Shown in pieces: positions 997 to 25,964 of a stretch of DNA of 64,000 bases (position 1 is its first letter; each line of letters begins with the position of its first letter). The position numbers were made by a program, and so were the translations under genes. The stretch spans positions 1-64,000 of the forward strand of contig ONKD01000006.1 of the NCBI GenBank assembly GCA_900318345.1. Reading direction: 5' to 3'. Under the pieces are notes generated by a model. The model made no database searches. It had not been told where the DNA came from and was given only the letters and a program-made list of their open reading frames with translations. Source of the DNA: an uncultured Prevotellaceae bacterium. Lineage in GTDB: Bacteria; Bacteroidota; Bacteroidia; Bacteroidales; Muribaculaceae.

Positions 997-3900
997 TTAC
1001 TTCACGATAATCTCGCAGATTGAAACACGGTTCCAGCTCAGTTCATCAAACATGTTGCTGATGCCCTGGCCCTGGGCGTTGATGCGCTTGGCATCGATAC
1101 CATACTTCTTCACGAGCATGTCCTTCACGCTGGCGGCGCGGCCGTTAGCGAGAGTGATGTTGCGGTCCATGGGACCGTCCTTGGAAGCATAACCATTGAT
1201 GACGCAGGTAGCCTCGGGGTGGCTCTTCATGTAAGCGGCGATGCGCTCCACATTGGGCTGCTGGTCGGCATAAACGGCCATCGAGTTAATGGGGAAGTGA
1301 ACCAGGATGGTCATGTACTGCAATGACTTGTCAATCATACCGCTCTTGCTGTTCTGGCAAGCGGCAAGATCACGCTGCAACTGGCTGTTCTGGTTGTTGG
1401 CAGCATTGAGCTGGTTCTGCAGTGCGGCGATGCGGCTGTTGTAAGCGTTCTCGGCATTAGCGAGCTGGGCGCGCAGGTCATTGATCTGAGCGTTCAAGGC
1501 GCTGTTGTCGCCAGTAACGGCTACGGCAGCACTGCGGTTGGTACCGAAGGTCACTTGCAGACCTACAGACCAGGTGCGGTTGATGGGATAGGTGCGGCCC
1601 CAAGTACCGTAGCCCAGAGAGCCCTGTCCGGCGTTCATCTCGGGATCGATGGGGAGGTCACCGCTGCCCTTGTGGAGCAGACACAGGTTGTTCACACTAC
1701 CGTAAACACGCAGTTTCTCGATGAAGGCCTTGCGGGTCAGGTTCTCGGGCAGGGTGTAACCCAGCGTGATGTTCTTGAGGCGCAGGTAGCTCATGTCAAC
1801 GAGGTACTTGGTCTGGGGATAGTAGTTGTGGCAACCACCCTCACCCGAGAGACCTACCACGTTACCAGCAAACTCGTTGCCAGGGTAGAGGCAGGGGAAG
1901 TCGTTGCTCTCGCTGATGTTCACAACGCCATTTTCGGGATCATAGATATTGTACTTGGTCTGGTTAGCAAAGATTGCTAGGTCGGCCGAACGCATCATCG
2001 GGAAGACGAATGCCGACTGGGTCCACATCTCGCGCTTGCCCACGCCCTGGAAGAAGACGTCGAGGTCGAAGCCCTTGAAGAAACCGCCCACGTGGAAGCT
2101 GTACTCATAGCGGGGCATCATGTTACCGATGACCTTGAGGTCGCCATGGTTCTCCTGGGTGCCGTTACCACCGTCAATCTTACCGTTGTTGTCCAGGTCC
2201 TTGTACTTGATGTCACCAGGGCCAAAGACGAAGGTCTGGGTTTGGATACCGGTCTGATCGGCAACGCCGGGAGCATAGATCCAGGAACCATCTTCGTTCT
2301 TGCCAGTGAAGTCACGCTCGGTGAAGTAGCGGTCGGTCTCAAAGCCCCAGATGTCACCCCAGGTCATGCCCTCGTAGGCATAGGCGCTGTTGCAGGGGTA
2401 GCCAATGAGGTGAGAGTCGTTGTTCCACTTGGTCACCTTGGTCTTAGCGTCACCGACGCTTGCGCTGAAGTAAGCGCTAAAGTCCTTGTTGAACTGCTTG
2501 CGCAGGTCGAGGGTAGCTTCCCAACCACGGGTGCGAAGCTTACCGTTGTTGGTCACAGGAGCTGCAGCACCAACCGAGGGGGGCAGTGCGGTGCCAGGAC
2601 CCAGCATGTCGCTGGTGGTGCGCTGGTACCAGTCAAAGCCGAGGGTGAGAATGTCACCAAACAGGCCCAGGTCGATACCGGCATCCATGGTGGTGATGCG
2701 TTCCCAAGTCAGCGAGGAGTTCACCCAGCTGGGCAGGCCGAGCTCGGTCACCTTGGCACCGCTCTCGTTGAGCCAGTAGATGTTGCTCTGGCTGATGGGG
2801 CTGATGAGCGACTGGAACTGGTTCTCGCCCACGGCCTCGTTACCGATGGTACCATAGGAGAAGCGCAGCTTACCGTTATCCACGATGTGGCGCAAGCGGT
2901 CCCAATATTTCTCCTGGGTGAAGCGGTAACCTACCGATCCCGAGGGGAAGAATGCCCAGTGGTCATTCACGGGGAAGCTCGACGAGCCGTCGTAGCGTCC
3001 GTTCAACTCGAGCAGGTAGATGCCCTTGTAGTCATAGTTGATACGGCCAAAGTAACCGGCGGTAGCCTTGTCGCGGGTCCAGCTGGTGATGTTCCACTTG
3101 GTCTGGTCGCCATAGGTCAAAGCCAGCTCGGGATAGGCTTCGCTATAGAGCTGGGGCCTGTAAGCATAGAAGTAGTCGCTGGAGTAGTTGTCACCGTTGA
3201 CACCGACCATGATGTTGAAGTTGTGAGCATCGTTGAAGCTCTTGTTCCAGTTCAAGGTGGCGTTAGCGGCCCACTTGTCGCTCTTGCTGTTGTCGCGCCA
3301 GGCGTTGGTGTTACCGTCGTTCACGATCCACTGGGGGGTGACGCCGCTCCAGTTGTAGCCATAGACGGTGTGGTCGCTTGAACCGCTGTTCATGTTGCCG
3401 ATCTCATAGGTGAAGTCGGCGTTCAAGGTCAGGTCCTTGGTGATGTGCACGGTGGTGAAGGCGGTCATGCTCAGGCGGTCCATGGTGACGTTCTTGCGTG
3501 CAGCCTGCTTCTGCATGGCGATCACGCGGAAGTCGAGCTGCTCGCCCGTGTTGGGATCGGCAATCGTGCCACTAGGGATGAAGAAGGAGCCCCAGCGCCA
3601 GATGTACTGGTACATGTTGTTCCATGTATCGGCGCGCGAGAAGTGGCGGCGCGAGAAGTTGATGCGTGCACCAACGGTCAACCAGTCGGTCAAGTCGGTC
3701 GAGATGTTGGCAGCGGCATTGTAGCGCTTGCGCATGGCAGGATTCCACTTCATGTTATCCTCCTTGTAGTTGTAGCCAAATGACAGGTAGTAGGTGGTGC
3801 GGTTGCTTGCACCGCGCACCGACACGTTGTGGCCCTGTGAGGGAGCAGCGTGGTTGTACCAGATGTTCTGGATGTCATAGTCGGCATAGTACATGGGCTG

Positions 3901-4920
3901 GCTGCCGATGAAGCGGTAATCACCCACGTCACCGTCGCTCACCCAGGGGCGCATCACGCCATAACCAATCTTCTTGCCGCCATTCTGCTGCTTCCATGCC
4001 TCGGCATAGGGCAGCAACTGGTCGAAGTACATACCGAAGAGCTCGACAGCGTCAGAGCCCTCGCGCTTCTTGGCCATGATGGCCGACTTGAGCTGGGTGG
4101 GCACATCGGGGAAGTCGGGCAGGAAGGTGGGATCGTCCCAACCGAAGTTGTTAGAGTAGCTGACGGTGGCGCGCTCACCCTTTTGACCAGCCTTGGTGGT
4201 AATCAAGATGACACCAAAGGCGGCACGGGTACCGTAGATCGATGACGAAGCAGCGTCCTTGAGTACCGATACGGTGGCGATGTCGTTGCCGTTGAGCAGC
4301 TGCAGTCCGTCCATGTCGCTCACCACACCGTCGATGACGATCATGGGCGAGCTGTCCTGGCCGTTGCTCAGGGTGCCGACGCCACGGATGCGCATCGTGG
4401 GATTGCCGTCGATGTCACCACTGGCGTTGATGATGCTCAGTCCAGGCACTGCGCCTTGCAATGCGCGGGACACGTCCTGCTCGGGACGTGAGTTGAAGGT
4501 CTTGTCGATGTCGACAGTGGAAACGGCACCGGTGAGGTTCACCTTCTTCTGTGTACCGTAGCCCACGACAACGAGTTCATCGAGCAGGGCCTTATCCTCG
4601 GCCATGACGATGTTCATGCCCGTAGTGGCACGGGCGGTCACCGTCTTGTAGCCGATGAACGAAATCTGCAGCTTGGCATTGGTGCCAGCTCTCAACGAGA
4701 AGTTACCGTCCACATCGGTCGATGTGCCACGGGTCGTTCCAACCTCGACAATGCTGGCGCCGATGATGGGTTCTCCCTTCTCATCGACGACGCGGCCTGT
4801 CACAATGGTGGTAGCAGAATTGGCCACCACTTGGGGCGCTGGTGCAGCTTGGGCCTGGTTGTAGTAACCAGTGCCGCATAGCATCAGCACTGCGCCCAAA
4901 AGAGCTAAATGTCTTTTCAT
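997..4920 (-). CDS. SusC/RagA-like TonB-dependent receptor with C-terminal coiled coil and OmpA-like domain
   Basis: Outer-membrane TonB-dependent channel of 1307 residues. In order: signal peptide (1-27), carboxypeptidase-regulatory-like fold (about 40-107), the conserved DELVVVGYGTQKK segment (114-126), plug domain with the SusC signature LKDAASSSIYGTRAAFGVI, then a beta-barrel ending in a VGLQVTFGT-type last strand. Unlike ordinary SusC, the chain continues: a coiled coil with heptad-spaced Leu/Ala/Asn (about 1141-1191) and an OmpA-like domain (about 1200-1307) with the motif LANGRAASVKDMLVKKYGI. Both ends of a TonB receptor barrel lie in the periplasm, so the added domain could reach peptidoglycan. 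ATG at 4920 is preferred over an in-frame GTG at 4926 because the signal peptide begins there. No degradative enzyme gene adjoins. Confidence 0.93.
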   Translation of the reverse strand: MKRHLALLGAVLMLCGTGYYNQAQAAPAPQVVANSATTIVTGRVVDEKGEPIIGASIVEVGTTRGTSTDVDGNFSLRAGTNAKLQISFIGYKTVTARATTGMNIVMAEDKALLDELVVVGYGTQKKVNLTGAVSTVDIDKTFNSRPEQDVSRALQGAVPGLSIINASGDIDGNPTMRIRGVGTLSNGQDSSPMIVIDGVVSDMDGLQLLNGNDIATVSVLKDAASSSIYGTRAAFGVILITTKAGQKGERATVSYSNNFGWDDPTFLPDFPDVPTQLKSAIMAKKREGSDAVELFGMYFDQLLPYAEAWKQQNGGKKIGYGVMRPWVSDGDVGDYRFIGSQPMYYADYDIQNIWYNHAAPSQGHNVSVRGASNRTTYYLSFGYNYKEDNMKWNPAMRKRYNAAANISTDLTDWLTVGARINFSRRHFSRADTWNNMYQYIWRWGSFFIPSGTIADPNTGEQLDFRVIAMQKQAARKNVTMDRLSMTAFTTVHITKDLTLNADFTYEIGNMNSGSSDHTVYGYNWSGVTPQWIVNDGNTNAWRDNSKSDKWAANATLNWNKSFNDAHNFNIMVGVNGDNYSSDYFYAYRPQLYSEAYPELALTYGDQTKWNITSWTRDKATAGYFGRINYDYKGIYLLELNGRYDGSSSFPVNDHWAFFPSGSVGYRFTQEKYWDRLRHIVDNGKLRFSYGTIGNEAVGENQFQSLISPISQSNIYWLNESGAKVTELGLPSWVNSSLTWERITTMDAGIDLGLFGDILTLGFDWYQRTTSDMLGPGTALPPSVGAAAPVTNNGKLRTRGWEATLDLRKQFNKDFSAYFSASVGDAKTKVTKWNNDSHLIGYPCNSAYAYEGMTWGDIWGFETDRYFTERDFTGKNEDGSWIYAPGVADQTGIQTQTFVFGPGDIKYKDLDNNGKIDGGNGTQENHGDLKVIGNMMPRYEYSFHVGGFFKGFDLDVFFQGVGKREMWTQSAFVFPMMRSADLAIFANQTKYNIYDPENGVVNISESNDFPCLYPGNEFAGNVVGLSGEGGCHNYYPQTKYLVDMSYLRLKNITLGYTLPENLTRKAFIEKLRVYGSVNNLCLLHKGSGDLPIDPEMNAGQGSLGYGTWGRTYPINRTWSVGLQVTFGTNRSAAVAVTGDNSALNAQINDLRAQLANAENAYNSRIAALQNQLNAANNQNSQLQRDLAACQNSKSGMIDKSLQYMTILVHFPINSMAVYADQQPNVERIAAYMKSHPEATCVINGYASKDGPMDRNITLANGRAASVKDMLVKKYGIDAKRINAQGQGISNMFDELSWNRVSICEIIVK

Positions 4921-5278
4921 AAGCACGTTTTAGTTAGTTAATATTTAGTTAGTTAATCTAGAAGATTCTATAACGACTCTTGCCAAGGGTATAAAGCCTC
5001 AGTTTACATTTGCTTTTTTTAACAAGATGCAAAATTCTATATTTTTTTTGAAATATCCAAAAAATCGAAGAGTTTTTGTAAAACCGAATGTTAAAAACCA
5101 TAAAAAAATGTACATAACAAGTAAAATTTTGGCTAAAAATAACCATATTTGGTGGGCCAAAACCATTTTTTTGGCCATTTTTTTGGCCACATGAATTTTT
5201 GTTTGCAAATTTGCCTTTCAAATCGCAAAAAATTAGAAAGATAATAATTTAATATCTATTAATTTAAAGTAAGTGCGT
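4921..5278. promoter_or_regulatory. Divergent intergenic region between two susC-like genes
   Basis: 358 bp without a plausible gene, very AT-rich, with runs of A and T. It must hold the promoters for both flanking susC-like genes. One TAnnTTTG match reads rightward (TACATTTG, 5005-5012) but lies 266 nt before the rightward start. No convincing element is seen close to either gene. Repeated TTAGTTAGTTAATATTTAG lies just before the leftward gene, and TTTTTTTGGCCA is duplicated at 5166-5188. Both genes are preceded by AGTGCGT/CGTGCTT directly before the ATG. Confidence 0.5.
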
Positions 5279-8200
5279 ATGAAAAAACAATTAGCACTGT
5301 TGGCCGCGCTGGCAATCGCCTGCGGAGCACCAGCTGGGATGACATCGCTTCCCAGTATGGGTTTCACAGCCGAGGCCCAGGCCAACAAAGTCTCTGGCGT
5401 CATACGTGACGCCCAAGGTGAGCCTCTCATCGGCGCGACCGTTAAGGTCAAGGGTACCAACCGCGGTACCGCCACCGATGTGGATGGCAAGTATTCAATT
5501 GTCGCCAACCGTGGTGACGTGCTCGTTGTGTCTTACATCGGCAGCAAGCCCATGGAGGTTACCGTGGGCAGCGGCTCGATGGACATCAACATGCAGGCCG
5601 GTGACCAGGTCCTTGACGAGGTGGTTGTGACCGCGCTCGGTATCCGCAAGGACAAGAAGTCGCTGGGTTATGCCGTTGACGACCTGAAGGCTGATGAGCT
5701 GATGCGCAACAAGAGCGCTAACGCCATCAACTCCCTGTCAGGTAAGATTGCTGGTGTGAACATCACCCAGTCGTCGGGTGCCGCAGGTTCGGGTGCCCAG
5801 ATTATCCTGCGTGGTGGTACGTCGGGTGCCGAGAGTCGCGACAACCAGCCCATATTTGTTGTCGATGGAGTGATCTATGACAACTCGTCGGCTGTTGTCG
5901 GCAACTCTGCCTTCGACGGTATCATGAACAGTGCAACCACAACCTCTAACCGTGTGATGGATATCAACCCCGAGGATATTGACAACATCAGTGTCTTGAA
6001 GGGTCCGGCCGCATCGGCACTCTATGGTAGCCGTGCTGCCAACGGTGTTGTGCTCATCACCACCAAGAAAGGTAAAGAAGGCCGCATTGAGGTTAACTTG
6101 AGCGCCAAGTACATCCTTTCCCAGGTGAGCCACCTGCCCAAGGTGCAGAAGCAGTTTGGTCGTGGTTATCTCCAGGATTACTACGACGCTGATGGCAACT
6201 ATCAGGGCGCTCAATATGGCGATACCCACAGCTATTCAAGCTGGGGTGCCCCCTATAGCCAGTCGGGCTTGAAGTGGTATGACAACATCGGTGAGTTCTT
6301 CCAGGATGGTGGCATTTGGGACACCAACCTGAGCGTGAGCGGTGGTAACAAGAACGGTAACTTCTACTTGAGTGGTTCGTTCTATGACCAGACGGGTATC
6401 GTCCCCGAGACCGGTTACAAGAAAACGACCTTCCGCTTCAACGGCGAGCAGCGCTGGGGCATCTTCACCTTTGGCGCTAACGCAGCCTACAGTGATGCCC
6501 GCACAGCCAAGACTCTGACTGGTGCTGCCCTGTATGGTTCTAGCGGTACCGGTGCGCTATATGCAGTGTACAACTGGCCCACCAGCGAGAACATGAAGCA
6601 TTATATGAACGACGATGGCACCCGCTATCGCATGTTCGGTGACGAGGTTGTGCCCTGGAGTGAGATGGATAACCCCTACTGGATTATCAACAAGAACCCC
6701 ATGAAGGATAACACCGAGCGCTTCACCGGCAACTTCCACGTGAAGGCCGACCTCACCGACTGGTGGTCGATTACTTACCGCATGGGTGTGGACAGCTACA
6801 CGACCGACAACTCGATGCGCATTGCTCGTGGCGGTGTCTTCAAGAACGAGTGGCTCAACGGATTCATGAGCGATAACACGCTGCGTTTCCGCTACCTGAG
6901 CAACAACTTGATGACCAACTTCAACAAGCAGTTTGGCGACTTCAACTTCAACCTGATGCTGGGTGGTTCTACCGACTATACCAAGACCCGCCGCGACTAT
7001 CAGAAGGGTTGGGACTTCCAGATTGCTGATTTCTATAGCTACAATAACGTTCCCGAGTCCAACAAGAAGTTCTCGCACTCCAGCTCGCGCAAGCGCATGG
7101 TGTCGGCCTTCGGTGAGTTCCGCATGGACTGGCGCAACGCCATCTTCCTGACCGTTACCGGCCGTAACGACTGGACTTCTACCCTGCCCATCGAGAACCG
7201 CAGCTACTTCTATCCCAGTGTGAGTGGCGCTATCGCCTTCACCGAGCTCTTCCGTGAGAGCCTGCCCGACTGGTTCAGCTTTGGTAAGATTCGTGGTTCG
7301 TGGGCCAAGGTCGGTAAGGATACCAACCCCTATGAGACCGCCACGACGCTGTGGCCCGTGGGTGAATACCTGAACGGCGCTATCGGTCTGGGTAACAGCT
7401 GGGAGCGTGGTAATCCCTACATCAAGCCCGAGATGGGTAACGCACTCGAGTTTGGTATCGAACTGCGCTTCATCCAGAACCGTTTGAAATTTGATGCTAC
7501 CTGGTACAAGAACAAGTCGGTCAACCAGATTTTGTCACCGCGTGGTCCTCAGTCCACGGCCTACATCTTCTGCTCGATCAACGCCGGTACCGTTTATAAC
7601 AAGGGTATTGAGCTCAGCTTGAGCGGCACTCCCATCCAGACCCGTGACTTCACTTGGGAGACCGGTATCAATGCTGCCGGTAACCGTGGCACCATGGATG
7701 GCCTGCCCACCGGTATGGACATCATGTACCTGACTGATGTACAGTATGGCAGCGCCAAGGCTGCAACCTTCTCGGGTGGTGACTTCATGGCTATCGCAGG
7801 TACCAAGTGGTCGCGCGTGGCTGATACCGAGGAGAACCGCAAGTACAATCCCGACATGATCGGTAAGCTGATTCTTGACAAGAATGGCATGCCTCAGCAG
7901 GCCGAGTCTGGCAAGATCTATGAGGTGGGTAACCGTGAGCCCAAGTTCACTGGCGGTTGGAACAACACCTTTACTTGGAAGAATGTTTCGTTCAACATGT
8001 TGTGGGAATTCCGCGTTGGTGGCGACGTCTTCAACGGCACCAAGTATGCCATGTCGATGAGCGGCGTGAGCGAGCTCAGTGGTGACTGGCGCAACGATCC
8101 CCTGACCATCAGTGGTGTTACTGGTCATGACGAGGTTGTTGGCCAGGATGCTAACGGCAACGACATCATTGCCACTATCTATGATAACGTGTCCAACACG

Positions 8201-9127
8201 TGGAAACCTGGCGAGACCTGCACCTATAACGGCAAGCAGATGAGCTCGACCAACGTGATTACCAACTACTACACTGGTGCCTATGGCTACGAGACCGCTA
8301 ACTGGATCACCAAGGTGAACAGCCTGCGTCTGCGCACCATTTCGTTAAGCTACAGCCTGCCCAGGGCTTTGCTCGCTAAGACCAAGGTTCTCGACCGCGC
8401 CATCATCACTGCAAGTGCTACCAACCTGTTGTTGTTCACCAACTATGATGGTGATCCCGAGGTTGCTGCCGCTGGTGCTGGCCGTGGTGGTTCATCATCA
8501 GTAGGTTTTGACTACTGTGGTGTTCCTTCAACCCGTCAGTATGCACTCGGTGTTAACCTGACCTTTGGTGGCGACTATGCCGCACCTGCACGCGTCAACA
8601 ATGTTGAGCTCGACCTGCTCAACGGCCAGATCAATGACCTGCGCAACCAGTTGACCAACGCTCAGAACGCTCAGAATGCTAACAACGCCCGCATTGCCCA
8701 GCTCGAGGGTGACCTCGCCGCTGCCAATCGTGCCCTTGCTAACTGCAAGAACGACCTGAACGCTGCCAAGAACAAGCCCACAAGCGTTGTTGACAACAGC
8801 AAGCAGTACATGAACGTGCTCGTTCACTTCCCCGTGAACAAGACCGCCGTTAGCACCGACCAGCGTCCCAATGTGGAGCGCGTCGCTGCTTACCTGAAGA
8901 GCCATCCCGAGGCCACCTGCACCATCAAGGGCTTTGCCTCACCCGAGGGCAACCAGGAGAACAACATCAAGCTCGCTAACGGCCGTGCCGCCAGCGTAAA
9001 GGATATGCTCGTCAAGAAGTATGGTATCGCTGCTAACCGCATCAACGCCGCTGGCCAGGGTATCAGCAACATGTTTGATGAGTTGAGCTGGAACCGTGTT
9101 TCAATCTGCGAGATCGTCGTGAAGTAA
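5279..9127 (+). CDS. SusC/RagA-like TonB-dependent receptor with C-terminal coiled coil and OmpA-like domain
   Basis: Outer-membrane TonB-dependent channel of 1282 residues, second of three with the same unusual build. Signal peptide (MKKQLALLAALAIACGAP), carboxypeptidase-regulatory-like fold (about 38-110, with GEPLIGATVKVKGTNRGT), plug domain with the signature LKGPAASALYGSRAANGVV, barrel to about residue 1100, coiled coil with Asn/Ala/Leu heptads (about 1115-1165), OmpA-like domain (about 1177-1282, with ASPEG and LANGRAASVKDMLVKKYGI). The arginine of the LxxxRA motif, which contacts diaminopimelate in OmpA-type domains, is kept; the aspartate normally found in the TDxxG loop is replaced by the ASPEG sequence. 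ATG 5279 is chosen over the in-frame GTG at 5273. Followed by its SusD partner after 98 nt. Substrate unknown. Confidence 0.93.
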   Translation: MKKQLALLAALAIACGAPAGMTSLPSMGFTAEAQANKVSGVIRDAQGEPLIGATVKVKGTNRGTATDVDGKYSIVANRGDVLVVSYIGSKPMEVTVGSGSMDINMQAGDQVLDEVVVTALGIRKDKKSLGYAVDDLKADELMRNKSANAINSLSGKIAGVNITQSSGAAGSGAQIILRGGTSGAESRDNQPIFVVDGVIYDNSSAVVGNSAFDGIMNSATTTSNRVMDINPEDIDNISVLKGPAASALYGSRAANGVVLITTKKGKEGRIEVNLSAKYILSQVSHLPKVQKQFGRGYLQDYYDADGNYQGAQYGDTHSYSSWGAPYSQSGLKWYDNIGEFFQDGGIWDTNLSVSGGNKNGNFYLSGSFYDQTGIVPETGYKKTTFRFNGEQRWGIFTFGANAAYSDARTAKTLTGAALYGSSGTGALYAVYNWPTSENMKHYMNDDGTRYRMFGDEVVPWSEMDNPYWIINKNPMKDNTERFTGNFHVKADLTDWWSITYRMGVDSYTTDNSMRIARGGVFKNEWLNGFMSDNTLRFRYLSNNLMTNFNKQFGDFNFNLMLGGSTDYTKTRRDYQKGWDFQIADFYSYNNVPESNKKFSHSSSRKRMVSAFGEFRMDWRNAIFLTVTGRNDWTSTLPIENRSYFYPSVSGAIAFTELFRESLPDWFSFGKIRGSWAKVGKDTNPYETATTLWPVGEYLNGAIGLGNSWERGNPYIKPEMGNALEFGIELRFIQNRLKFDATWYKNKSVNQILSPRGPQSTAYIFCSINAGTVYNKGIELSLSGTPIQTRDFTWETGINAAGNRGTMDGLPTGMDIMYLTDVQYGSAKAATFSGGDFMAIAGTKWSRVADTEENRKYNPDMIGKLILDKNGMPQQAESGKIYEVGNREPKFTGGWNNTFTWKNVSFNMLWEFRVGGDVFNGTKYAMSMSGVSELSGDWRNDPLTISGVTGHDEVVGQDANGNDIIATIYDNVSNTWKPGETCTYNGKQMSSTNVITNYYTGAYGYETANWITKVNSLRLRTISLSYSLPRALLAKTKVLDRAIITASATNLLLFTNYDGDPEVAAAGAGRGGSSSVGFDYCGVPSTRQYALGVNLTFGGDYAAPARVNNVELDLLNGQINDLRNQLTNAQNAQNANNARIAQLEGDLAAANRALANCKNDLNAAKNKPTSVVDNSKQYMNVLVHFPVNKTAVSTDQRPNVERVAAYLKSHPEATCTIKGFASPEGNQENNIKLANGRAASVKDMLVKKYGIAANRINAAGQGISNMFDELSWNRVSICEIVVK

Positions 9128-9225
9128 GTATAAATCAAGTTTAGAGTTTTGTGTTTAGAGTTTAGAGTGACTTGAGTCATTAAAAACAAAGGACATAAAG
9201 ACTAAAAACTAAAAATTAGAACAAT
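9128..9225. repeat. Heptamer arrays and palindrome in susC2-susD2 spacer
   Basis: The spacer opens with TTTAGAG-type heptamers (9140-9168), then the palindrome TGACTTGAGTCA (9168-9179), then the complementary series ACTAAAAACTAAAAATTAG directly before the SusD ATG. The order array - palindrome - complementary array matches the spacer at 22156-22256. Confidence 0.55.
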
Positions 9226-11133
9226 ATGAAACTTTTGAAATCAATTATACTGTGCGGTTTGGGAGTCGCAGCATTGTCGCTGACCTCGTGCAACGACTGG
9301 CTGGATGTGAACACCGATCCCGATAACCCTTCAGACCAGATCGTGAGCTATGATCAGCGTCTGGCGCACCTTGAGTTCTATTCTAATAGCGCTCACCAAT
9401 TTGCTGACTGGCGCACCAACTTCATTACTGGTGACTGGACCCGTTACTACAATGGTGGAACTTACTGGCACATGTCCTACTGGAATCCCCAGACGGGTGC
9501 CGTGACCACCTCCTATCAGTGGTTCTTTGTCGGCGCCTATGCCAACATCGTTGACATGTACAACAAGGCTATGGCCGCCGACGACAAGAAGTTTGCAGGT
9601 ATCGCTCGACTGATGAAGGCTTATGGCTTCATGCTCATGACCGACCTTCACGGTGAGATGCCCTATACCGAGGCTGGTGGTATCGAGGCTCTGCCTCACT
9701 ACGACACAGGCCGCACCATCTTCATGGGCTGTATCAACGACATCGAGGAGGCTATCGCTCTGCTCGAGGAAGGCCGCAGCCAGACAGGCGCTGAGTTTGC
9801 TAATTTGGCATCGGTTGACTGGTGGAACCAGGGTAATGTTGACAAGTGGATCAAGTTGGCCTACTTCCTGAAAGCCCGCTGGTTGCTCAAGCTCACCAAG
9901 AAGGGTCCTGGCAGCTACAAGGATGGCAAGTATGATGCTAACGAGATTCTCGCATGCCTTGACAAGGCCATGCAGAGCAATGCCGACAACACCATCATCT
10001 ACCACACCGATGACAACGGTGCTACCCACGACGTACTGGGTTGGGATGAGCCTGTTGACTACTCACCCTTGTATTCAGTGTGCGGTATGAATGCCGGTTA
10101 CATGGTGACCAAGATGCTTTATGACAACCTGACTAACTTTGGTGGTTATGGCGTCGAGGATCCCCGTGCTGACCACATCATCCCCTGGGCTTACAGCGAG
10201 AAGGGCGAGAACACGCCCGCCGAGATCAAGTGGATTGGCAACTGGCGTCGTTCGCTGGGTGTTGACATGGCTTCGGGTATCAACCAGGCTGGTGGCCCCC
10301 TGCGTGCCGCTTACACCACATCGGCTGTTGAGAAAGGCCCCGAGGGCAACAAGAAGACCTTCCTGCACTGGTACATCAACGACAACAACCCCGACCGTTG
10401 GGGTGATACCGTCTATGTAGAGTGCACCAGCGAGTCTAAGGGTTATGCTGGCAAGAAGGACCTGCTCTATCGCCGTGGTGGTGCTGATGTTGAGGGTTCC
10501 AAGGAGTCAGGATCATACTACTCCCGCGTGAGCTCGCCCACCTATGTTGGCACTTATGCCGAGTGCTGCCTGATCCGTGCCGAGGTTCTCTTCAACCAGG
10601 GCCAGAAGGCTGCCGCATTTGAAGCCTACAAGAAGGGTATCCAGGCTAGCATCGAGTTGATGAACCAGAAACTGAACGCTTGGGTTTCAGAGGATCCCAG
10701 CCTCGCCGACTGCCCGTCGTTCACCCCGATTCAGCAAGAGGCTATCGACAACTTCTTGAACAATGGTATCGGTAATGCCGGTGACATCACCCTGGGCCAC
10801 ATCCTGACCCAGAAGCGTATCGCCCTTAACTTCTCGGTTGAGATCTGGAACGATATGCGCCGCTATGACTTTGATCCCAACCTGTTCTTCGGTTGGCACA
10901 TCCCCGCTTATCACGCATTTGTAGCCGCTGCCACCAGGGGTATCCCCGAGGGCAAGCAGTTCCGCCGCTGGCGTCAGTGCTCACACGAGTATAACTACAA
11001 TGCAGCCAACTTGCAGGCCATCGGTGCCCAGGTTCCTGGTGCTGTGATGACCAAGGACGGTAAGGAGAACCGCTGGAATGAGGATGATGAGGTCTGGACG
11101 ATTCCCGTATGGTGGGATAGCGACCAGGAGTAA
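9226..11133 (+). CDS. SusD-like outer-membrane lipoprotein
   Basis: Partner lipoprotein of the SusC-like channel at 5279. 635 residues. The N-terminus MKLLKSIILCGLG leads to a LTSC lipobox with Cys at about residue 22; the next residues NDWLDVNTDPDNPS are characteristic of the SusD-like group with an early Asn-Thr-Asp-Pro segment (SusD-like_2). The helical core includes a WFFVGAYANIVDMYNKA helix and a MTDLHGEMPYTEA segment, and near the C-terminus ILTQKRIALNFSVEIWNDMR, a well-conserved SusD motif. Expected to be lipidated and held at the cell surface over the barrel. The gene is the last of its unit and is followed by a strong terminator hairpin. Nothing in context reveals the ligand. Confidence 0.93.
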   Translation: MKLLKSIILCGLGVAALSLTSCNDWLDVNTDPDNPSDQIVSYDQRLAHLEFYSNSAHQFADWRTNFITGDWTRYYNGGTYWHMSYWNPQTGAVTTSYQWFFVGAYANIVDMYNKAMAADDKKFAGIARLMKAYGFMLMTDLHGEMPYTEAGGIEALPHYDTGRTIFMGCINDIEEAIALLEEGRSQTGAEFANLASVDWWNQGNVDKWIKLAYFLKARWLLKLTKKGPGSYKDGKYDANEILACLDKAMQSNADNTIIYHTDDNGATHDVLGWDEPVDYSPLYSVCGMNAGYMVTKMLYDNLTNFGGYGVEDPRADHIIPWAYSEKGENTPAEIKWIGNWRRSLGVDMASGINQAGGPLRAAYTTSAVEKGPEGNKKTFLHWYINDNNPDRWGDTVYVECTSESKGYAGKKDLLYRRGGADVEGSKESGSYYSRVSSPTYVGTYAECCLIRAEVLFNQGQKAAAFEAYKKGIQASIELMNQKLNAWVSEDPSLADCPSFTPIQQEAIDNFLNNGIGNAGDITLGHILTQKRIALNFSVEIWNDMRRYDFDPNLFFGWHIPAYHAFVAAATRGIPEGKQFRRWRQCSHEYNYNAANLQAIGAQVPGAVMTKDGKENRWNEDDEVWTIPVWWDSDQE

Positions 11134-11154
11134 TCCCCCACTCTATCCATTAAT

Positions 11155-11274: not shown

Positions 11275-11279
11275 TACTC

Positions 11280-18582: not shown

Positions 18583-18644
18583 CCCTAGGGACGGTATCAG
18601 GAAAAAGCTTCGCTAGGGGTGACAGATTGTGCGTGTTGTGTTTT

Positions 18645-18695
18645 CCGTTTTTTCTTTTTTTTCTGCGCATACACGTGTGGAAAGAAAAAAAACGA
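18645..18695. repeat. Poly-T/poly-A palindrome, copy 1
   Basis: A T-rich arm beginning CCGTTTTTTCTTTT, a GC-containing centre (TGCGCATACACGTGTGG) and an A-rich arm (AAAGAAAAAAAACGAG) make an imperfect hairpin. The left arm and centre recur nearly unchanged at 19058-19090, so the two copies flank the 56-codon ORF at 18734. Just before it, GCTAGGGGTGACAGATTGTG resembles GTTAGTGGCGACAGATTGTG at 52748-52767. Confidence 0.6.
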
Positions 18696-18733
18696 GAAAT
18701 CAGACCCATTTTTTATTTACCATTTTAAAAACC

Positions 18734-18904
18734 ATGATTACCATGAGAACCCAATTATTGTATGACCTGGCTTGCAGCATTGCAGATGTGCTCAAGCAGG
18801 GAGTAGAACCGGAAATCTGCAAGCGTGACGGGATCGTTGACGTCAGCGTCATCGACCCCGGTAGCAACAACCGCGTCGTTGTCACCCGACAGTCAGGTGG
18901 TTAA
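18734..18904 (+). CDS. Small hypothetical protein (56 aa)
   Basis: Begins at the ATG of MITMRTQLLYD; a second in-frame ATG follows three codons later. Contains an amphipathic helix (LLYDLACSIADVLKQG) and a short beta-rich part (VDVSVIDPGSNNRVVVTR). No signal peptide or membrane segment. Coding character is supported by GC-rich codons in an otherwise very AT-rich stretch of about 780 bp. It lies alone between two copies of a poly-T/poly-A palindrome. I do not recognise it; the fold is too short to assign. Confidence 0.5.
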   Translation: MITMRTQLLYDLACSIADVLKQGVEPEICKRDGIVDVSVIDPGSNNRVVVTRQSGG

Positions 18905-19057
18905 GTAACTTTCTCGTTTTCTCATTTTTCCCATTTTATATATATAAAGAGAAAAAAGAGAAAAATGATAAATATAGAAATTTGGTTATCTCTATAATTT
19001 TGATCAATAATTTCTATATAGATTATTCAACTAAGACAGATAGAAAAATCTAAAATT

Positions 19058-19109
19058 CCATTTTTTCTTTTTTTTCTACGCACACACGTGAAAAAAAAAG
19101 AAAAAACGG
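19058..19109. repeat. Poly-T/poly-A palindrome, copy 2
   Basis: CCATTTTTTCTTTT... CTACGCACACACGTG followed by AAAAAAAAAGAAAAAACGG. Same orientation and layout as 18645-18695, differing by a few bases. Confidence 0.6.
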
Positions 19110-19248
19110 AAAAACGAACGATAAAGGCCGCAGGCCGATCAATAATTGAGTCATACGAGTTTTGCAACAGCCTTGTGCAGGCCTTCAGCCTGCATCTTTC
19201 CTCGGATACTGATGACAATAAGCAGTTGATTAACAAAGCCATAACGAT

Positions 19249-19264
19249 GGTTTCACGTGAAACT
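19249..19264. other. parS-like ParB-binding palindrome
   Basis: GGTTTCACGTGAAACT contains the perfect 14-bp palindrome GTTTCACGTGAAAC. It matches the near-universal parS sequence TGTTTCACGTGAAACA except for the outermost base on each side. Two better matches lie at 27650 and 28715. Confidence 0.65.
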
Positions 19265-19304
19265 ATCATGATAGTATAGCAGCAACACACAACGGGCAAT
19301 GTAA

Positions 19305-19343
19305 CAATCAGCCGCAATGGAGCAGATCCATTGCGGCTGATAA
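19305..19343 (-). terminator. Terminator of the susC3-susD3-lipoprotein unit
   Basis: ATCAGCCGCAATGGA (19307-19321) and TCCATTGCGGCTGAT (19327-19341) make a perfect 15-bp stem with a five-base loop, 21 nt beyond the stop codon of the minus-strand lipoprotein gene. Confidence 0.75.
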
Positions 19344-19362
19344 AGTGTTATTGTCCTGTGCT

Positions 19363-20241
19363 TTACTCGATCACGAACTGATAGAGCGTGCAACGGATGC
19401 TCTTGCTGCCGCAGTTACCAGCGGCAATCTGGCGATATGCGCGGCCGATGTACCAGGTCCAGTAGTCGGTGAACTCACCGGTGTTGCCATTGGACAAGGT
19501 GTAAGGCAGCTTACCGGTTACATTGCCATTGTTATCTACAGCGAAGAGGCAAACCTCACGGCGCTGCGAACCAGAGCTGTTGAAAACGGTCTTGCGGATC
19601 TTGACAGTGAACCACTTGGTGCACTCGCCAAAGCCGATGGGCTCGCCAACGGGCTCATACTCCTTGGTGTCAAGGTTTTGTACACCATACTGTACCTTGC
19701 CGGTGTAGGGCTGGCCATCAGCCTCATAGAGCAGGTTGATGAACTGCACGCGGCACAGCGAGTCGGTATCCAGAGCCTTGCCAAACTCGGGAGCGGCGGT
19801 CATCTCGATGGGGATGGGCGCCTTGTTCAGGTCATGCACATAGAGGCAATAGCGCTTGCCAGCCTCGACGGTTACGTTCTGATCATAAACGACAGGATAG
19901 GTGTAACCGCCATTGCCGTCGCTCACGCGCTTGTGCAGCTTGAGGTTGACGTTACCTGCATCCACTGCATAGTAGCGGTTAGTGCCGCCCGAGGGAACGG
20001 TGTTGAAGGTAGCCAGGAAGGTGGCACCATCGTTGCCATACTCGACACCATTGATGTCGATGAAGTACATGTAATTGGCTGCGCCGGCGGTGATGGGCTC
20101 ATAGTAGCCGACCTGGATGTAAGCCTTTGAGGACTCGTCAACGGGTTCGGCCATATAGGAGACGTCCTTCTTGTCACAGGAGCCCATTGTCACTGCCACC
20201 AGCAGCAATAATGCTATATATTTGAAAAATTTCATAGTCAT
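19363..20241 (-). CDS. Lipoprotein, accessory to SusC/SusD pair
   Basis: 292 residues, third gene of the susC3 unit, 27 nt after the SusD-like stop. Lipoprotein signal peptide with lipobox MGSC (Cys at about residue 22) followed by DKKD. The mature protein is beta-rich, with segments such as NYMYFIDINGVEYGNDG, RYYAVDAGNVNLKLHKR and KRYCLYVHDLNKAPIPIEM, reminiscent of Ig-like or DUF4397-like extracytoplasmic domains. Such third lipoproteins often sit on the cell surface and help bind the ligand. ATG 20241 and 20235 are both possible starts; the second gives a more typical signal peptide. No enzyme motif is visible, so function beyond surface binding is a guess. Confidence 0.8.
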   Translation of the reverse strand: MTMKFFKYIALLLLVAVTMGSCDKKDVSYMAEPVDESSKAYIQVGYYEPITAGAANYMYFIDINGVEYGNDGATFLATFNTVPSGGTNRYYAVDAGNVNLKLHKRVSDGNGGYTYPVVYDQNVTVEAGKRYCLYVHDLNKAPIPIEMTAAPEFGKALDTDSLCRVQFINLLYEADGQPYTGKVQYGVQNLDTKEYEPVGEPIGFGECTKWFTVKIRKTVFNSSGSQRREVCLFAVDNNGNVTGKLPYTLSNGNTGEFTDYWTWYIGRAYRQIAAGNCGSKSIRCTLYQFVIE

Positions 20242-20268
20242 TGAATTTTTAAATCAATTAATAAAACA

Positions 20269-22155
20269 TCATCTTGTAGTGGGCATATCGCCAGGATAGC
20301 AGAACCACATGATTGAGCACTGGTAGTCAAGTTCCTGGCCGCCGATGGGCAGGAGTGCATCCAGATTGGTCTTGTTCCACATGTACTCTGAGTTGTAGCG
20401 CGGGCGCAGGCGGAAGCAAGGTGAACCGTTGTTGTCGGTATTGAAAGCGCTCTTGCGACCCTGTACCTGTGCGGGCTGCAGCCAGAATCCCTTGTAAACC
20501 TTGGTGGGATCGGTGTCAAGCTTTTGGTTGAGGGTCGTCCTGTCCCAACCGTTGCCGTTCTTGGGATAGTCGCCAGTGTACTCAATGTCATAGAAGTACT
20601 TGCGCAGGTCAACCCAAGCCTCGGGAGCGCCCCAAGGATAGAGGGCGAGGTACTTCTGCATAATGATGTGCGAGAGCGAGAACTCGCTCAGGGGCAGACC
20701 AGCCACGTAGGGACCACTGAGGTATTCCTGGGCCAGCGTGTTGAAGGTGGCCTTGGTCACGCGGTCGCCCTGACGGTAGTTGCCGTTCAATGTACCAGGA
20801 ACGATATAGCTGGCGGTGAACTCCATGTCAGCGGCCATAGCCTTCTTCCAGGTCTCAAATGCTTCGCTCTTGCTACCATACTTGAACTGTACCTCGGCGA
20901 GGTCAAACAGCAGCTCGGCATAGGTGGCCATGATGTAGGGAGCGTCGTCATAGTACAGCCAGTGGCCAGCGCCGTCATAGACGGTGTTGCTGGTAGCGTT
21001 GCGGCCCCAGAACGAGGGAGCAGTGCCGATGGGACCAGTAGCGCCAGTGAAGCCCGAGCCCACATAGTAGAGGCTACGGAGCACCTCGCGGTCGGCGATG
21101 GTGGCATAGTTGCTGCTGTCGGTCGTGGCCAGTTTCACGAGGCGGCGCGGGTCAAAGTGACCTGCATCGGGCAGCGTGTCGCTGGTGATCTGCTTGTCGA
21201 GCAACTGGTAGGGATAGTGCTGCTTGTTCAAGGGCAGGGTATCCTCGGTCTGGATGTAGTTGCCCTGCTCGTCATACTTGCGGATGGTACCCGTGAACAG
21301 CTGCACGGCATAGTCGTGCTGGAAGTAGCTGTAAACCAAGTTGCCGCGATAGGTGCCCCAGAAGTTGTTGTAGCCGCTTTCGGCAGCGTCAGCACCACCA
21401 CCGGCGATCTTCAGGGTTGCGTTGTCGTCGTTGCTGGCAAAAGCCTTGTTGACGGCGGTGATGAACTCGTTATAGTATTTCTCTTGGAAATCCCTCTTGT
21501 TGGTCAACGAGGCCAGGTTGCGGGCAATCACAGCATAGGCGAACTTGATCCACTTGTCCTTGTCGCCACCGTAAATGTAATCATTGTTCTTGATGCGGTT
21601 GCCATAGGCTGAGTTATCCTCCTTCTGCAGGTACTCGATAGCCTGATAGGCCCACTCACGCACCTGGGGATAGATGTCATACTGGTAGTCATACTCATGA
21701 GAGAGACGGCCTGCCTCGTAGGCCTGCTTCATGGGAGCCTCACCATTGACCTTGGTCAGCAGGTCCCAAGAGAAAGCCTTCATGGCCAATCCGATGCCGG
21801 CAAGCGTCCAGTTCTCGGCCTCAACACTCTGGTTGATCATGTTCTCCAGGTTCATACCCTGGTTCCAGTATACCATACGCCAAGTCTCACCACCGGCATC
21901 ACTAGCCTTGGTGTAGTAGTGGTTGGCAAAGTTGGTGTAGCTCGAGGTGCCCATCATCTGGGTGAGCGGTCCAATGGCACGGATGTCCCAGTAGATGCCC
22001 TGATAGGCCTGCTGGATGCCCGCCAGATAGAGGTAGCCCTCCACATAGTCAGGGGCGTCGGTGTTCTTGTTCACATCCAGGTAGTCGTCACAGGATGTCA
22101 AACCCAACGTCACGCAAGCCAGCGCACACAGTATAATTGATTTGAATGATTTCAT
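20269..22155 (-). CDS. SusD-like outer-membrane lipoprotein
   Basis: 628 residues, partner of the SusC-like receptor at 22257. Signal peptide ending in lipobox LTSC (Cys at about 22), then DDYLDVNKNTDAPDYV, typical of the SusD-like_2 group. Helical core with a Trp/Tyr-rich ligand face (GNLVYSYFQHDYAVQLFTGTI and NGWDRTTLNQ among others), and a C-terminal LIMQKYLALYPWGAPEAWVDLRK-type segment that matches the conserved SusD pattern where the protein packs on the barrel. The N-terminal codons resemble those of the other two SusD genes here. It precedes an accessory lipoprotein in the same unit. Confidence 0.92.
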   Translation of the reverse strand: MKSFKSIILCALACVTLGLTSCDDYLDVNKNTDAPDYVEGYLYLAGIQQAYQGIYWDIRAIGPLTQMMGTSSYTNFANHYYTKASDAGGETWRMVYWNQGMNLENMINQSVEAENWTLAGIGLAMKAFSWDLLTKVNGEAPMKQAYEAGRLSHEYDYQYDIYPQVREWAYQAIEYLQKEDNSAYGNRIKNNDYIYGGDKDKWIKFAYAVIARNLASLTNKRDFQEKYYNEFITAVNKAFASNDDNATLKIAGGGADAAESGYNNFWGTYRGNLVYSYFQHDYAVQLFTGTIRKYDEQGNYIQTEDTLPLNKQHYPYQLLDKQITSDTLPDAGHFDPRRLVKLATTDSSNYATIADREVLRSLYYVGSGFTGATGPIGTAPSFWGRNATSNTVYDGAGHWLYYDDAPYIMATYAELLFDLAEVQFKYGSKSEAFETWKKAMAADMEFTASYIVPGTLNGNYRQGDRVTKATFNTLAQEYLSGPYVAGLPLSEFSLSHIIMQKYLALYPWGAPEAWVDLRKYFYDIEYTGDYPKNGNGWDRTTLNQKLDTDPTKVYKGFWLQPAQVQGRKSAFNTDNNGSPCFRLRPRYNSEYMWNKTNLDALLPIGGQELDYQCSIMWFCYPGDMPTTR

Positions 22156-22256
22156 AATATATATCTTAGTTTTTAGTTTTTAGTTCTTAGTCCTTAGTTT
22201 GTAGTAACTTAAGTCACATTAAACTCTAAACCCTAAACTCTAAACTTGATTTATAC
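22156..22256. repeat. Heptamer arrays and palindrome in susC3-susD3 spacer
   Basis: Read on the coding (minus) strand: TTTAGAG-type heptamers, palindrome GTGACTTAAGTTAC, then repeated ACTAAAA/ACTAAGA up to the SusD start. The first 25 bases after the susC stop are the same as after the stop at 9127. Confidence 0.6.
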
Positions 22257-25200
22257 TTACTTCACGACGATTTCGCAAATCGAAACACGGTTCCAGCTCA
22301 ACTCGTCAAACATGTTGCTGATACCCTGGCCAGCAGCGTTGATGCGGTTGGGGGCGATACCATACTTCTTGACGAGCATATCCTTCACGCTGGCGGCACG
22401 GCCGTTAGCGAGCTTGATGTTGTTCTCCTGGTTGCCCTCGGGTGAGGCATAGCCCTTGATGGTGCAGGTGGCCTCGGGGTGGCTCTTCAGGTAGGCAGCG
22501 ACACGCTCCACATTGGGACGCTGGTCGGTGCTAACGGCGGTCTTGTTCACGGGGAAGTGAACGAGCACGTTCATGTACTGCTTGCTGTTGTCAACTAGCG
22601 TGGGCGTGGGAGCAGGCTTGTTCTTGGCAGCGTTCAGGTCGTTGCGGCAGTTGGCCAGGGCGCGGTTAGCGGCGTCGAGGTCACTCTGCAGCTGTGCCAG
22701 GCGGCCATTGTAGTTGTTCTCGGCGTCGGCGAGCTGGGCACGCAGCGTGTTGATCTGGTCATTGAGAGCAGTGGTGTTGGTGTAAGCGGCCTTGGCTGCA
22801 TCATCATTGCTGCCGAAGGTCACGCTCAGACCTACTGAGTAGCTGCGCGGAGTGGGCAGCGACCAGCAGTCGTAGCCCTCACCACCAGTACCACCAGCGG
22901 CAGCCGACAGGGTGTTACCAGCCACGTCGGTACCGGTGTAGTTGGTGATGGTGAACAAGTCGTTGGCTGCGGCATAGATGCTTGCATTCTGAATGGTACC
23001 CTTGGTCACACGGTTGAGCCAGCTGTGCGGGAAGATGTAAGCCAGACGCAATTCCTGGCAGCGGATGTAGTTGATCTTGTGCTGGATCCAGTCCTCATCA
23101 CCACCAGTGTAGGTGTAAGAACCATACTCGCCCAGGTTAACGGCGATGTTGTTGGGAGTGGGATTGGCACTCTCCTGCTTGCCGTCATAGAGCACGCCGT
23201 CAAATACCACGAAGCCCTGCTCACGCATGTCAACCGACAGCCAGTTCAAACCGGTACCCAACATGTCGCGCATGGTAGCGTTGACAACGTCGGCATGGTA
23301 GCGGCCCTGGAACATGGCACTCAGTCGCCAGTTCTTCACATTCAGGGCGGTGGTGATACCAAAGCGCAGTTTGGGCTCACGGTTACCTAGGATGCTCCAG
23401 TCAGCACTGGTGCGAGGCAGACCGGTGGTCGGGTCGATCAGGATCTGGCCAGCCTTGTTGCGCTCGTAGGCACGACCGGTAACGGTGCTGATGGGATGTC
23501 CCCTCATCACACCGTTGCGGATGTTACCTGAGTTCCAGGTGTAAGCGTTATAGAACTCGGTCAAGTTCTCGGGCAGGTAAACAACCTCACTGTTGGTGTG
23601 AGAGACGTTCACGCCCACATTCCAGCGGATATCGTTAGTGCGAACAACGTCAACATCGGCGTGGCCTTCCCAGCCCCACGTGTTAAACGTACCCACGTTC
23701 ATGTTGTTAAGCACGAAACCGGTAGCGTAACTCATGCGGAAGCCGGTCACGATCTGGTCGGCGCAGTGGGTGCGGAACCAGGTGAAGTCGGCATTGATGC
23801 GGTCGTTCCAGAAGCGGGCCTCAACACCAGCCTCATAGGAGGTGGTCATCTCAGGCTTGAGGCTGCGGTTAGGACCAGTGTAGCCATACTTGTAACCGCC
23901 ACCAGTCAGGCCTGTGGGCTCGAGCTCGGGGTCAATCGAGAGCACGGGAGCATCCTTACCTACCTGGGCGATAGCGCCACGCAGTTTCAGGTAATTGATG
24001 AAGCCCACATTCTTCATGAAGCCCATCTCGCTCAGCACGATAGCAAGCTCGCCAGCGGGATAGAAGTAGCTGTTGTTATCCTTGGGCAGGGTCGACGACC
24101 AGTCGTTACGGAAACGGCCGGTCAAGAAGATCATGTTGTTAAAGCCCAGCTCTAACTGACCCGAGATAGCCTGCACGCGGCGCTTGGTCGAGCGCTTCTT
24201 GCTGGTCACGGTGCTCTCGGTACAGTTGTTGATGCTGTAGAAGTCGATCACCTTAAAGTTGGTGCCATAGGATGACAAACTGGTAACACCGTTCTCCAAC
24301 TGGTGGTAACCGGCCTGAACACCCAGTGAGAACTTGTTGTCCCACCAGCTGTTGTTGTAACCGGCCAGCACGTTGAGCGTCGGGTCGTTGGTGTTGTACT
24401 TGGTGATGTTGTAGGTACCGCTGTTGTTGCTGTCATCGACACTCTGGTTAGCACTAGTATAGTAGGGGTGAGTGCCGTTCTCATAGGTCGAGGTGCTCAC
24501 GTCCCAACCCATCTGCAAGCGCAGGTAGGTGTGGGCAATCGGGGTGAAGTTCAGCGAGAAAGCGCTGATGATGCGGTCGGTCTCATCGTGCATCAGGTTC
24601 TTCTTCAAGGCGAACAGGGGGTTCAGCAGGTCGGTGTCGGTGTAGTAAGCGGGATACTTCATGTGAGCACCGTCCTCGGCCAGATACTGGCTCATGTCAT
24701 CGACGCTCGGCCAGCGGTAGCTGTAACGCACAGGACCATAAAGACCACGCAGGGCCTTGTCGTTCTTGGCGTTGACATACTGCATGCTACCTTCCATCGA
24801 CAACCACTTGGTCAGCTCGGCGCGACCGGCCAGTGACAGGTTGGTGCGCTTCAGGCTCGTGGTCTTGATGACACCATCCTGGTCAAAGAACGAAGCACTG
24901 GCGCGAACCGACATCTTGTCGTTACCAGCCTCCATCGAGAGGTTGTGGCGGTGCATGAAACCGGTCTGCAGCACGGCAGCCGTGTTGTCATAGAACGGCA
25001 TTGTGCCATCATACAGCGAACCATAGCGGCTGGTGTAGTAGAAGTTGGCAGCACCATAAGCACCATTGATGTACTTGTCCTGGATCTCGGGCCATCCATA
25101 GGCCTTGGACCAAGTGAACTGGTTGCTGTAGGTCACGCGAGCGCGGCCCGAGCGGCCTTTCTTGGTGGTGATGATGATGGCACCATTGGACGCGTCACTA

Positions 25201-25964
25201 CCATAAAGAGCGGCAGCAGCGGCACCCTTCAGCACGGTCATCGACTCGATATCCTCGGGGTTAAAGTCATTACCACGTGACGAGTAGTCGGTCGAGCGGG
25301 GCGTCAGACCAGCAGAACCACCATCCTCAACGGCCAGGCCGCTGGTGGGGTTGAACGAGGTGTTGTTCATGGGGATACCATCGATGACATACAACGGCTG
25401 GTTGTTACCGCTCAGCGACGTGGCACTGCGCAGCACTACCGTGGTTGATGCACCAGGGGCACCACCCGAACTAACAACGCTCATACCCGACACACGACCT
25501 TGCAGGGCCGAGATAAAGTCGGTGCGGCCCGACTCGATAATGTCCTGGGCCTTCACGTTCTGCACCGAGGAACCCACGGTGCGGGCAACACGTTTCATAC
25601 CAAACTCGGCGGTCACCACCACGTCTTGCAGCGTGTTGGCGCCTTCGGCCAGTACGATGTTGGCGGCTTTTGACGCGGGAACTTCCATCGCGTCATAGCC
25701 CACAAAGGAGAAGACCAGCGTCTGGTTCGGGTCGGCCTTAATCGAGTAACGGCCATCGAGGTCGGTGGTCGTTCCCGTGTTGGTGCCTTTTACCCTTACA
25801 TTAACGCCAATCATCGGCTCTCCGTTGGCGTCCTTGACAACGCCCGAAACTCGGTTGCTCTGGGCCATAGCCGTGAAGCCCGTGGTGTAATGACCATGTG
25901 TCATCACCGTCGGGGCGCCCATGGCTATTGCCAGCGTGCAGAGCAGTGCTAATTGTTTTTTCAT
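22257..25964 (-). CDS. SusC/RagA-like TonB-dependent receptor with C-terminal coiled coil and OmpA-like domain
   Basis: 1235 residues, third receptor with the added wall-binding tail. Signal peptide (MKKQLALLCTLAIAMG), carboxypeptidase-regulatory-like fold (GEPMIGVNVRVKGTNTGT), plug with LKGAAAAALYGSDASNGAI, barrel with terminal strand SVGLSVTFGS, coiled coil (about 1072-1120) and OmpA-like domain (about 1130-1235). The OmpA-like part is nearly identical to that of the receptor at 5279, differing at a handful of residues (for example GYASPEG against GFASPEG), whereas the barrels are much less alike. ATG at 25964 is preferred over an in-frame GTG at 25970. First gene of a three-gene unit. Confidence 0.93.
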   Translation of the reverse strand: MKKQLALLCTLAIAMGAPTVMTHGHYTTGFTAMAQSNRVSGVVKDANGEPMIGVNVRVKGTNTGTTTDLDGRYSIKADPNQTLVFSFVGYDAMEVPASKAANIVLAEGANTLQDVVVTAEFGMKRVARTVGSSVQNVKAQDIIESGRTDFISALQGRVSGMSVVSSGGAPGASTTVVLRSATSLSGNNQPLYVIDGIPMNNTSFNPTSGLAVEDGGSAGLTPRSTDYSSRGNDFNPEDIESMTVLKGAAAAALYGSDASNGAIIITTKKGRSGRARVTYSNQFTWSKAYGWPEIQDKYINGAYGAANFYYTSRYGSLYDGTMPFYDNTAAVLQTGFMHRHNLSMEAGNDKMSVRASASFFDQDGVIKTTSLKRTNLSLAGRAELTKWLSMEGSMQYVNAKNDKALRGLYGPVRYSYRWPSVDDMSQYLAEDGAHMKYPAYYTDTDLLNPLFALKKNLMHDETDRIISAFSLNFTPIAHTYLRLQMGWDVSTSTYENGTHPYYTSANQSVDDSNNSGTYNITKYNTNDPTLNVLAGYNNSWWDNKFSLGVQAGYHQLENGVTSLSSYGTNFKVIDFYSINNCTESTVTSKKRSTKRRVQAISGQLELGFNNMIFLTGRFRNDWSSTLPKDNNSYFYPAGELAIVLSEMGFMKNVGFINYLKLRGAIAQVGKDAPVLSIDPELEPTGLTGGGYKYGYTGPNRSLKPEMTTSYEAGVEARFWNDRINADFTWFRTHCADQIVTGFRMSYATGFVLNNMNVGTFNTWGWEGHADVDVVRTNDIRWNVGVNVSHTNSEVVYLPENLTEFYNAYTWNSGNIRNGVMRGHPISTVTGRAYERNKAGQILIDPTTGLPRTSADWSILGNREPKLRFGITTALNVKNWRLSAMFQGRYHADVVNATMRDMLGTGLNWLSVDMREQGFVVFDGVLYDGKQESANPTPNNIAVNLGEYGSYTYTGGDEDWIQHKINYIRCQELRLAYIFPHSWLNRVTKGTIQNASIYAAANDLFTITNYTGTDVAGNTLSAAAGGTGGEGYDCWSLPTPRSYSVGLSVTFGSNDDAAKAAYTNTTALNDQINTLRAQLADAENNYNGRLAQLQSDLDAANRALANCRNDLNAAKNKPAPTPTLVDNSKQYMNVLVHFPVNKTAVSTDQRPNVERVAAYLKSHPEATCTIKGYASPEGNQENNIKLANGRAASVKDMLVKKYGIAPNRINAAGQGISNMFDELSWNRVSICEIVVK

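Follow-up and report, generated by a model that had tools for sequence, protein, structure and literature searches.

The locus described here raises the question of how three SusC-type transporters came to run on past their barrels into an OmpA-like domain, and what this addition may do for an importer. We analysed a stretch of 64,000 nucleotides of contig ONKD01000006.1 from an uncultured Prevotellaceae bacterium (referred to as the window), for which three SusC-like receptors fused to an OmpA-like domain had been predicted from the sequence alone, each with an extension of about 170–190 residues. The genes, their tails and their SusD-type partners are as follows.

997..4920, minus strand: SusC gene 1 (type A), a TonB-dependent transporter with a coiled-coil and OmpA tail, 1307 aa
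997..1542, minus strand: tail of gene 1, consisting of a linker, a long helix and the OmpA domain, 181 aa, with PF00691 at residues 1209–1289
5279..9127, plus strand: SusC gene 2 (type B) with tail, 1282 aa
8570..9127, plus strand: tail of gene 2, 185 aa, with the OmpA domain at residues 1184–1264
22257..25964, minus strand: SusC gene 3 (type C) with tail, 1235 aa
22257..22811, minus strand: tail of gene 3, 184 aa, with the OmpA domain at residues 1137–1217
1..858, minus strand: SusD-type partner of gene 1, truncated by the contig start, with a match to NanU (SusD-family) at E 1e-7, under the model cut-off
9226..11133, plus strand: SusD-like lipoprotein, partner of gene 2 (PF12771, PF12741)
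20269..22155, minus strand: SusD-like lipoprotein, partner of gene 3 (PF12771, PF12741)

Architecture of the tailed transporters

All three genes are open and complete frames, and Pfam models recognised a CarbopepD_reg_2, a Plug, a TonB barrel and an OmpA domain (PF00691) in each of them, including the Plug and barrel domains expected of SusC/RagA proteins. The scores for the SusC/RagA model TIGR04056 (645.7, 797.3 and 632.2 bits for genes 1, 2 and 3; curated cut-off 368.25) and for PF00691 (46.4, 43.8 and 48.0 bits; gathering cut-off 27.2) exceed the cut-offs in every case. Together with the fold matches described below, these results bear out the predicted fusion and remove the objection that an HMM search might reveal no OmpA similarity. 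The extension past the last barrel strand measures 181, 185 and 184 aa in genes 1, 2 and 3, within the predicted range, and the motif LANGRAASVKDMLVKKYGI named in the original prediction is common to all three tails. The usual SusC end at the last barrel strand, a feature outside the TIGR04056 model, is absent from the three genes, as is the small N-terminal barrel of an OmpA porin, which has the SusC body in its place. A SusD-type lipoprotein gene lies directly downstream of each receptor, supported by Pfam for genes 2 and 3 and by a weak match for gene 1. Genes 2 and 3 are 80% alike at the DNA level over their signal-peptide regions (5271–5344 and 25899–25972), although the bodies are 36% identical in protein. 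Behind the SusD gene of gene 3, positions 19363–20241 code for a protein with a DUF4397 match under the cut-off, and relatives contain a gene of ~300 aa at the same place.

Elsewhere in the genome, a fourth fused copy was found at positions 1–2268 of contig C56, where it is truncated by the contig end; the part of its body that is present is 94% identical to gene 1. The genome contains 17 SusC proteins over the TIGR04056 cut-off, one of which runs off its contig. Among the 16 with a visible C-terminus, four are tailed and 12 stop at the barrel.

The original prediction had described a Leu/Ala/Asn heptad stretch ahead of the OmpA domain. Our model of the tail shows one continuous helix of 58 residues, corresponding to a length of ~87 Å at 1.5 Å per residue and predicted with pLDDT values of 83–93 over most of its length (mean of the model 78.0, pTM 0.50); the heptad period of ~3.5 proved mostly borderline in eight single sequences, for which 18 to 403 of 500 shuffles were as strong. 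The best fold match of the tail model was 3td3, with the DAP- and pentapeptide-bound structures 3td4 and 3td5 at ranks 6 and 7; structures of A. baumannii OmpA with glycine, with DAP and with a pentapeptide are thus among the best matches. A full-chain model of mature gene 3 gave SusC structures as best matches and, further along the chain, showed a helix of 50 residues and then an OmpA-type fold, at low confidence (mean pLDDT 59.8, pTM 0.58). Because TonB-receptor barrels have both termini on the periplasmic side, the tail should be located in the periplasm.

Distribution and gene order

A genome scan with the tail as query detected 119 relatives, of which the best 80 were retained, representing 79 distinct loci. 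All 79 show SusC-type barrel ends running on into the tail, two of them (L093 and L155) with an altered end; because the tail served as query and the best 80 of 119 relatives were retained, these numbers give no estimate of how often SusC is tail-less. In the genus sample, the tail lies in a long frame in at least 37 of 101 genomes, or at least 38 of 101 if G027 with a copy truncated by the contig end is included; the 37 genomes were counted by hand among the matches listed (to E ~2e-54) and represent a lower bound. Among the matches listed for the family sample (397 genomes, best nine candidates per genome, to E ~1e-50), the long tailed frames all came from the window's genus, and the ~400-aa frames from other genera are standalone OmpA. 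Among the best five candidates per genome in the samples of the order (393 genomes) and of the phylum (395 genomes), no genome other than that of the window showed the fusion; the family, order and phylum searches could miss a distant fusion of SusC and OmpA that arose independently. In the samples searched and among the matches listed, the fusion is limited to part of one genus. In genome G073 (94% complete), the subclade's OmpA is present and the fusion was not found. The records of the tailed loci are labelled Muribaculaceae, Prevotellaceae, Porphyromonadaceae or Bacteroidales, and the carriers are gut bacteria, mostly from ruminants, with several records naming goat, roe deer, buffalo or sheep.

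Four SusC types (A–D) bear the tail, usually near each other. Among 57 of the 79 loci, judged to share contigs, we found 23 contigs with at least two tailed genes. On 16 of these 23, a type A gene precedes a type B or C gene on the opposite strand, and five of the 16 have the order A(-) B(+) C(+); type D, where present on the same contig, lies 12–75 kb from the nearest other tailed copy. The A(-) B(+) C(+) genes of the relatives stand in a row on these five contigs, and gene 3 of the window is inverted and lies 13 kb from gene 2; the inverted tails could act as mediators of such inversions. Shortened or altered tails were found in six copies from three genomes, two in G056 (including L093), three in G071 (including L155) and one in G048. 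The shortening or alteration inside the OmpA domain represents either decay or an assembly collapse at repeats; near-identical repeats could cause assembly errors. The six copies suggest that the OmpA domain is not indispensable on every copy.

Three palindromes GTTTCACGTGAAAC, which we take to resemble the parS consensus, are located near the cluster at 19250–19263, 27651–27664 and 28716–28729, two of them perfect and one with a mismatch, compared to a mean of 0.02 expected by chance; a GidA/MnmG gene is present at 28733–30610. The 3.17-Mb assembly contains no perfect sites besides these two, so the cluster of tailed SusC genes may be located in the partition/origin region of the chromosome. 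The intergenic region 18641–19113 beside one parS-like site contains a pair of A-T rich inverted repeats of 52 nt (73%) and further palindromes.

Origin and exchange of the tail

Among the orthologues of gene 3, those at 91% identity or more are tailed or truncated by a contig end before the tail, and those at 65–75% stop at the barrel or are fragments, with frames mostly of 1050–1080 aa. The orthologues of gene 1 are tailed at 91% identity or more and tail-less at 56–72%, with a mixed type-A group at 49–52%, and those of gene 2 are tailed at 93% or more and include both tailed and tail-less copies at 63–76%. The tail-less orthologues in sister species terminate at the last barrel strand: all eight tail-less type C genes retrieved end in VTF, and types B and C of the single-contig genome G004 end in '...FGVNLTF' and '...GLSVTF', respectively. 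The order of SusD genes after B and C in tail-less G004 is the same as in tailed G015. In trees of 81 fused tails (of 83 fused copies, the two whose ends are altered were excluded), the fused tails form a clade with the standalone OmpA of the same subclade (0.998 nt; 0.91 aa), and all 81 fall together at a weak node (0.30 nt; 0.75 aa). The standalone OmpA consists of a small barrel, a coil and an OmpA domain, and the copy of this genome (on contig C29) shares 64–66% aa identity with the fused copies in the OmpA domain. The tail-less ends, the clade with standalone OmpA and the shared layout show that the tail corresponds to the periplasmic half of the major OmpA of this lineage, placed right after the last barrel strand of SusC. 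A single capture of this half is the simplest reading, although it is left unproven by the weak node. The strands, this source of the tail, the limit to part of one genus and the clustering go beyond the original prediction.

It had also been suggested that the fusions might replace OmpA-like tethers, which is mostly unsupported. Among the matches listed, a standalone OmpA is present in 35 of the 37 fused genomes, as an intact frame of 414–473 aa in 31 of them, and we rejected replacement as a general rule because of this retention. The standalone gene is split over two frames in G050, G054 and G058 (loci L216, L217 and L218), which represents either real loss or assembly error, and truncated at the contig start in G064. 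No standalone match at E 1e-10 was found in G029 and G060, where a replacement of OmpA is possible.

The window also contains the following inverted repeat.

8789..9227, plus strand: arm of the inverted repeat, from the OmpA domain over the stop codon and the intergenic region to the SusD start, 439 nt, 92%
22157..22595, minus strand: second arm of the 439-nt inverted repeat, 92% identical to 8789–9227

The identity between genes 2 and 3 amounts to ~0.5–0.6 at the barrel end and 0.92–1.00 from the OmpA domain to just past the stop codon, and it is back to ~0.5 inside the mature SusD. A KSIIL-type SusD signal peptide occurs in all 15 tailed type C units, in all 24 type A units in which this part was seen (it was not seen in six) and in 16 of 19 type B units, the other three including one wrong match and one near variant. 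It was found in none of the eight tail-less type C loci, and none of the 15 type D units have the shared signal peptide. These data fit the transfer of a tract that starts at the barrel end and runs as far as the SusD lipobox, with the stretch in type C extending into the SusD signal peptide. In the tail tree, types B, C and D are intermixed. Tail identity between types B and C is 0.925 within genomes (8 pairs) versus 0.879 between genomes (296 pairs), and the corresponding values are 0.822/0.826 for A-B, 0.814/0.815 for A-C, 0.798/0.796 for A-D, 0.864/0.862 for B-D and 0.871/0.872 for C-D. With all type pairs pooled, 35 of 2000 permutations gave values as high as the observed within-genome identity. 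Because the five other pairs lack an excess, we rejected a general homogenisation of tails within genomes except for B-C; recent exchange is visible only between these two types.

Possible functions and comparison with known systems

According to PMC6572160, residues D271 and R286 of A. baumannii OmpA bind DAP. Ser takes the place of the Asp equivalent to D271 in each of the 102 domains counted, 81 of them fused and 21 standalone, and likewise in all seven additional Bacteroidales OmpAs that showed the motif, out of 10 loci scanned; the Arg equivalent to R286 is kept in all 81 fused domains. Because fused and standalone domains alike contain Ser, it is the normal form in this lineage rather than decay in the fusions, and because it stands in place of Asp, peptidoglycan binding may be altered or absent. 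Both kinds of domains show the same pattern GYAS-x-[E/D]-G ... RA ... WNRV. The median dN/dS values of the OmpA domain are 0.11–0.20 by type; by this measure, the domain is under purifying selection, which argues for a function. By analogy, peptidoglycan anchoring by the tail is plausible.

We consider it on balance probable that the tail anchors a TonB-dependent SusCD importer to peptidoglycan non-covalently and that the helix acts as a spacer or oligomeriser. OmpA's long helix and domain were grafted directly behind the last barrel strand of what look like working SusC transporters. The helix would span part of the periplasm and perhaps pair the two SusC proteins of a SusCD dimer or pair with OmpA, and the OmpA domain would grip peptidoglycan non-covalently. 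The wall would then hold the importer in place during the pull of TonB on the plug, and tailed SusC proteins would add links between outer membrane and wall in a phylum without a detected pal gene. The Ser at the D271 site, the six shortened or altered tails, G073, in which no fusion was found, and the tail-less sister species speak against an anchor. The wider proposal that clustered SusCD importers were turned into staples between outer membrane and wall, with the graft passed between neighbours and the tract reaching into the partner's signal peptide in one type, is tentative and could go either way.

The tail may instead mainly oligomerise, its helix pairing with OmpA or other tailed SusC proteins to form mixed assemblies in which binding to the wall plays a secondary part or has been lost. 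The model predicts the helix well, the helix occurs together with the OmpA domain and resembles a stretch in standalone OmpA, and the change from Asp to Ser at the DAP site would suit such a role, as would the trimers formed by the OmpA-like proteins Pgm6/7 of P. gingivalis according to PMC6112661. However, the coil is less conserved than the OmpA domain in pairwise comparisons of genes 1–3 (47–64% versus 78–98% aa), and its heptad periodicity is mostly borderline, and we regard a mainly oligomerising tail as rather unlikely. A tail with little function of its own, hitch-hiking as a homologous patch for sequence exchange at the SusC-SusD junction, would agree with the 439-nt repeat, the climb in identity of genes 2 and 3 over the OmpA domain, the B-C excess within genomes and the SusD signal peptide that tailed type C units share with A and B units. 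The purifying selection, the motif residues kept as in standalone OmpA and the five type pairs without within-genome excess make this improbable. As for an artefact, the sequence is a draft MAG with near-identical repeats, but many separate assemblies agree in the junction, in having open frames and in a gene order that recurs, which rules out a frameshift, misassembly or chimera joining two genes, and the chance of such an origin is negligible. The original observation is confirmed, and its interpretation as a whole is partly supported.

Among the outer-membrane proteins of Bacteroidota, SusCD complexes are major ones, and the tailed and tail-less orthologues within one genus offer a natural set for testing wall fixation of a TonB-driven importer by its effects on transport, mobility and vesicle loading. 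The tail would also be an example of a periplasmic anchor passed on as a module from one transporter to another. If the anchor reading is true, one protein would serve both transport and envelope tethering in a phylum without detected pal. In PMC12204202, pal was undetected in Bacteroidetes in the database used, PorE is proposed as a tether between outer membrane and wall, and the mode of fastening in Bacteroidota is treated as an open question. We found neither OmpA nor peptidoglycan in PMC12578637, and no description of a fusion of SusC or another TonB receptor with OmpA in the open-licence PMC literature, which is weak evidence of absence.

Compared to known systems, the SusC/RagA transporters BT2261-2264, BT1762-1763 and RagAB have the same CarbopepD domain, plug, barrel and SusD partner, and 5fq7, 6z9a and 6slj were fold matches; the usual SusC stops at the last strand, whereas the window genes continue for 181–185 residues. 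The lineage's standalone major OmpA has the same coil and OmpA domain, but a small N-terminal barrel instead of the SusC body. The C-terminal domains of A. baumannii OmpA and P. aeruginosa OprF share the fold and the R286-type Arg with the tails, but contain the D271-type Asp where tailed SusC proteins have Ser. Intimin-type barrels possess a periplasmic wall-binding domain, and a barrel is tied to the wall in the Acinetobacter adhesin/TpgA pair. Both represent the same idea of a barrel tied to the wall, but they are adhesins, unlike the TonB-driven importers described here, and the match of the TpgA model to the window proteins is far under the cut-off. The SusC and OmpA halves are of known kinds, and their combination and its spread are new.
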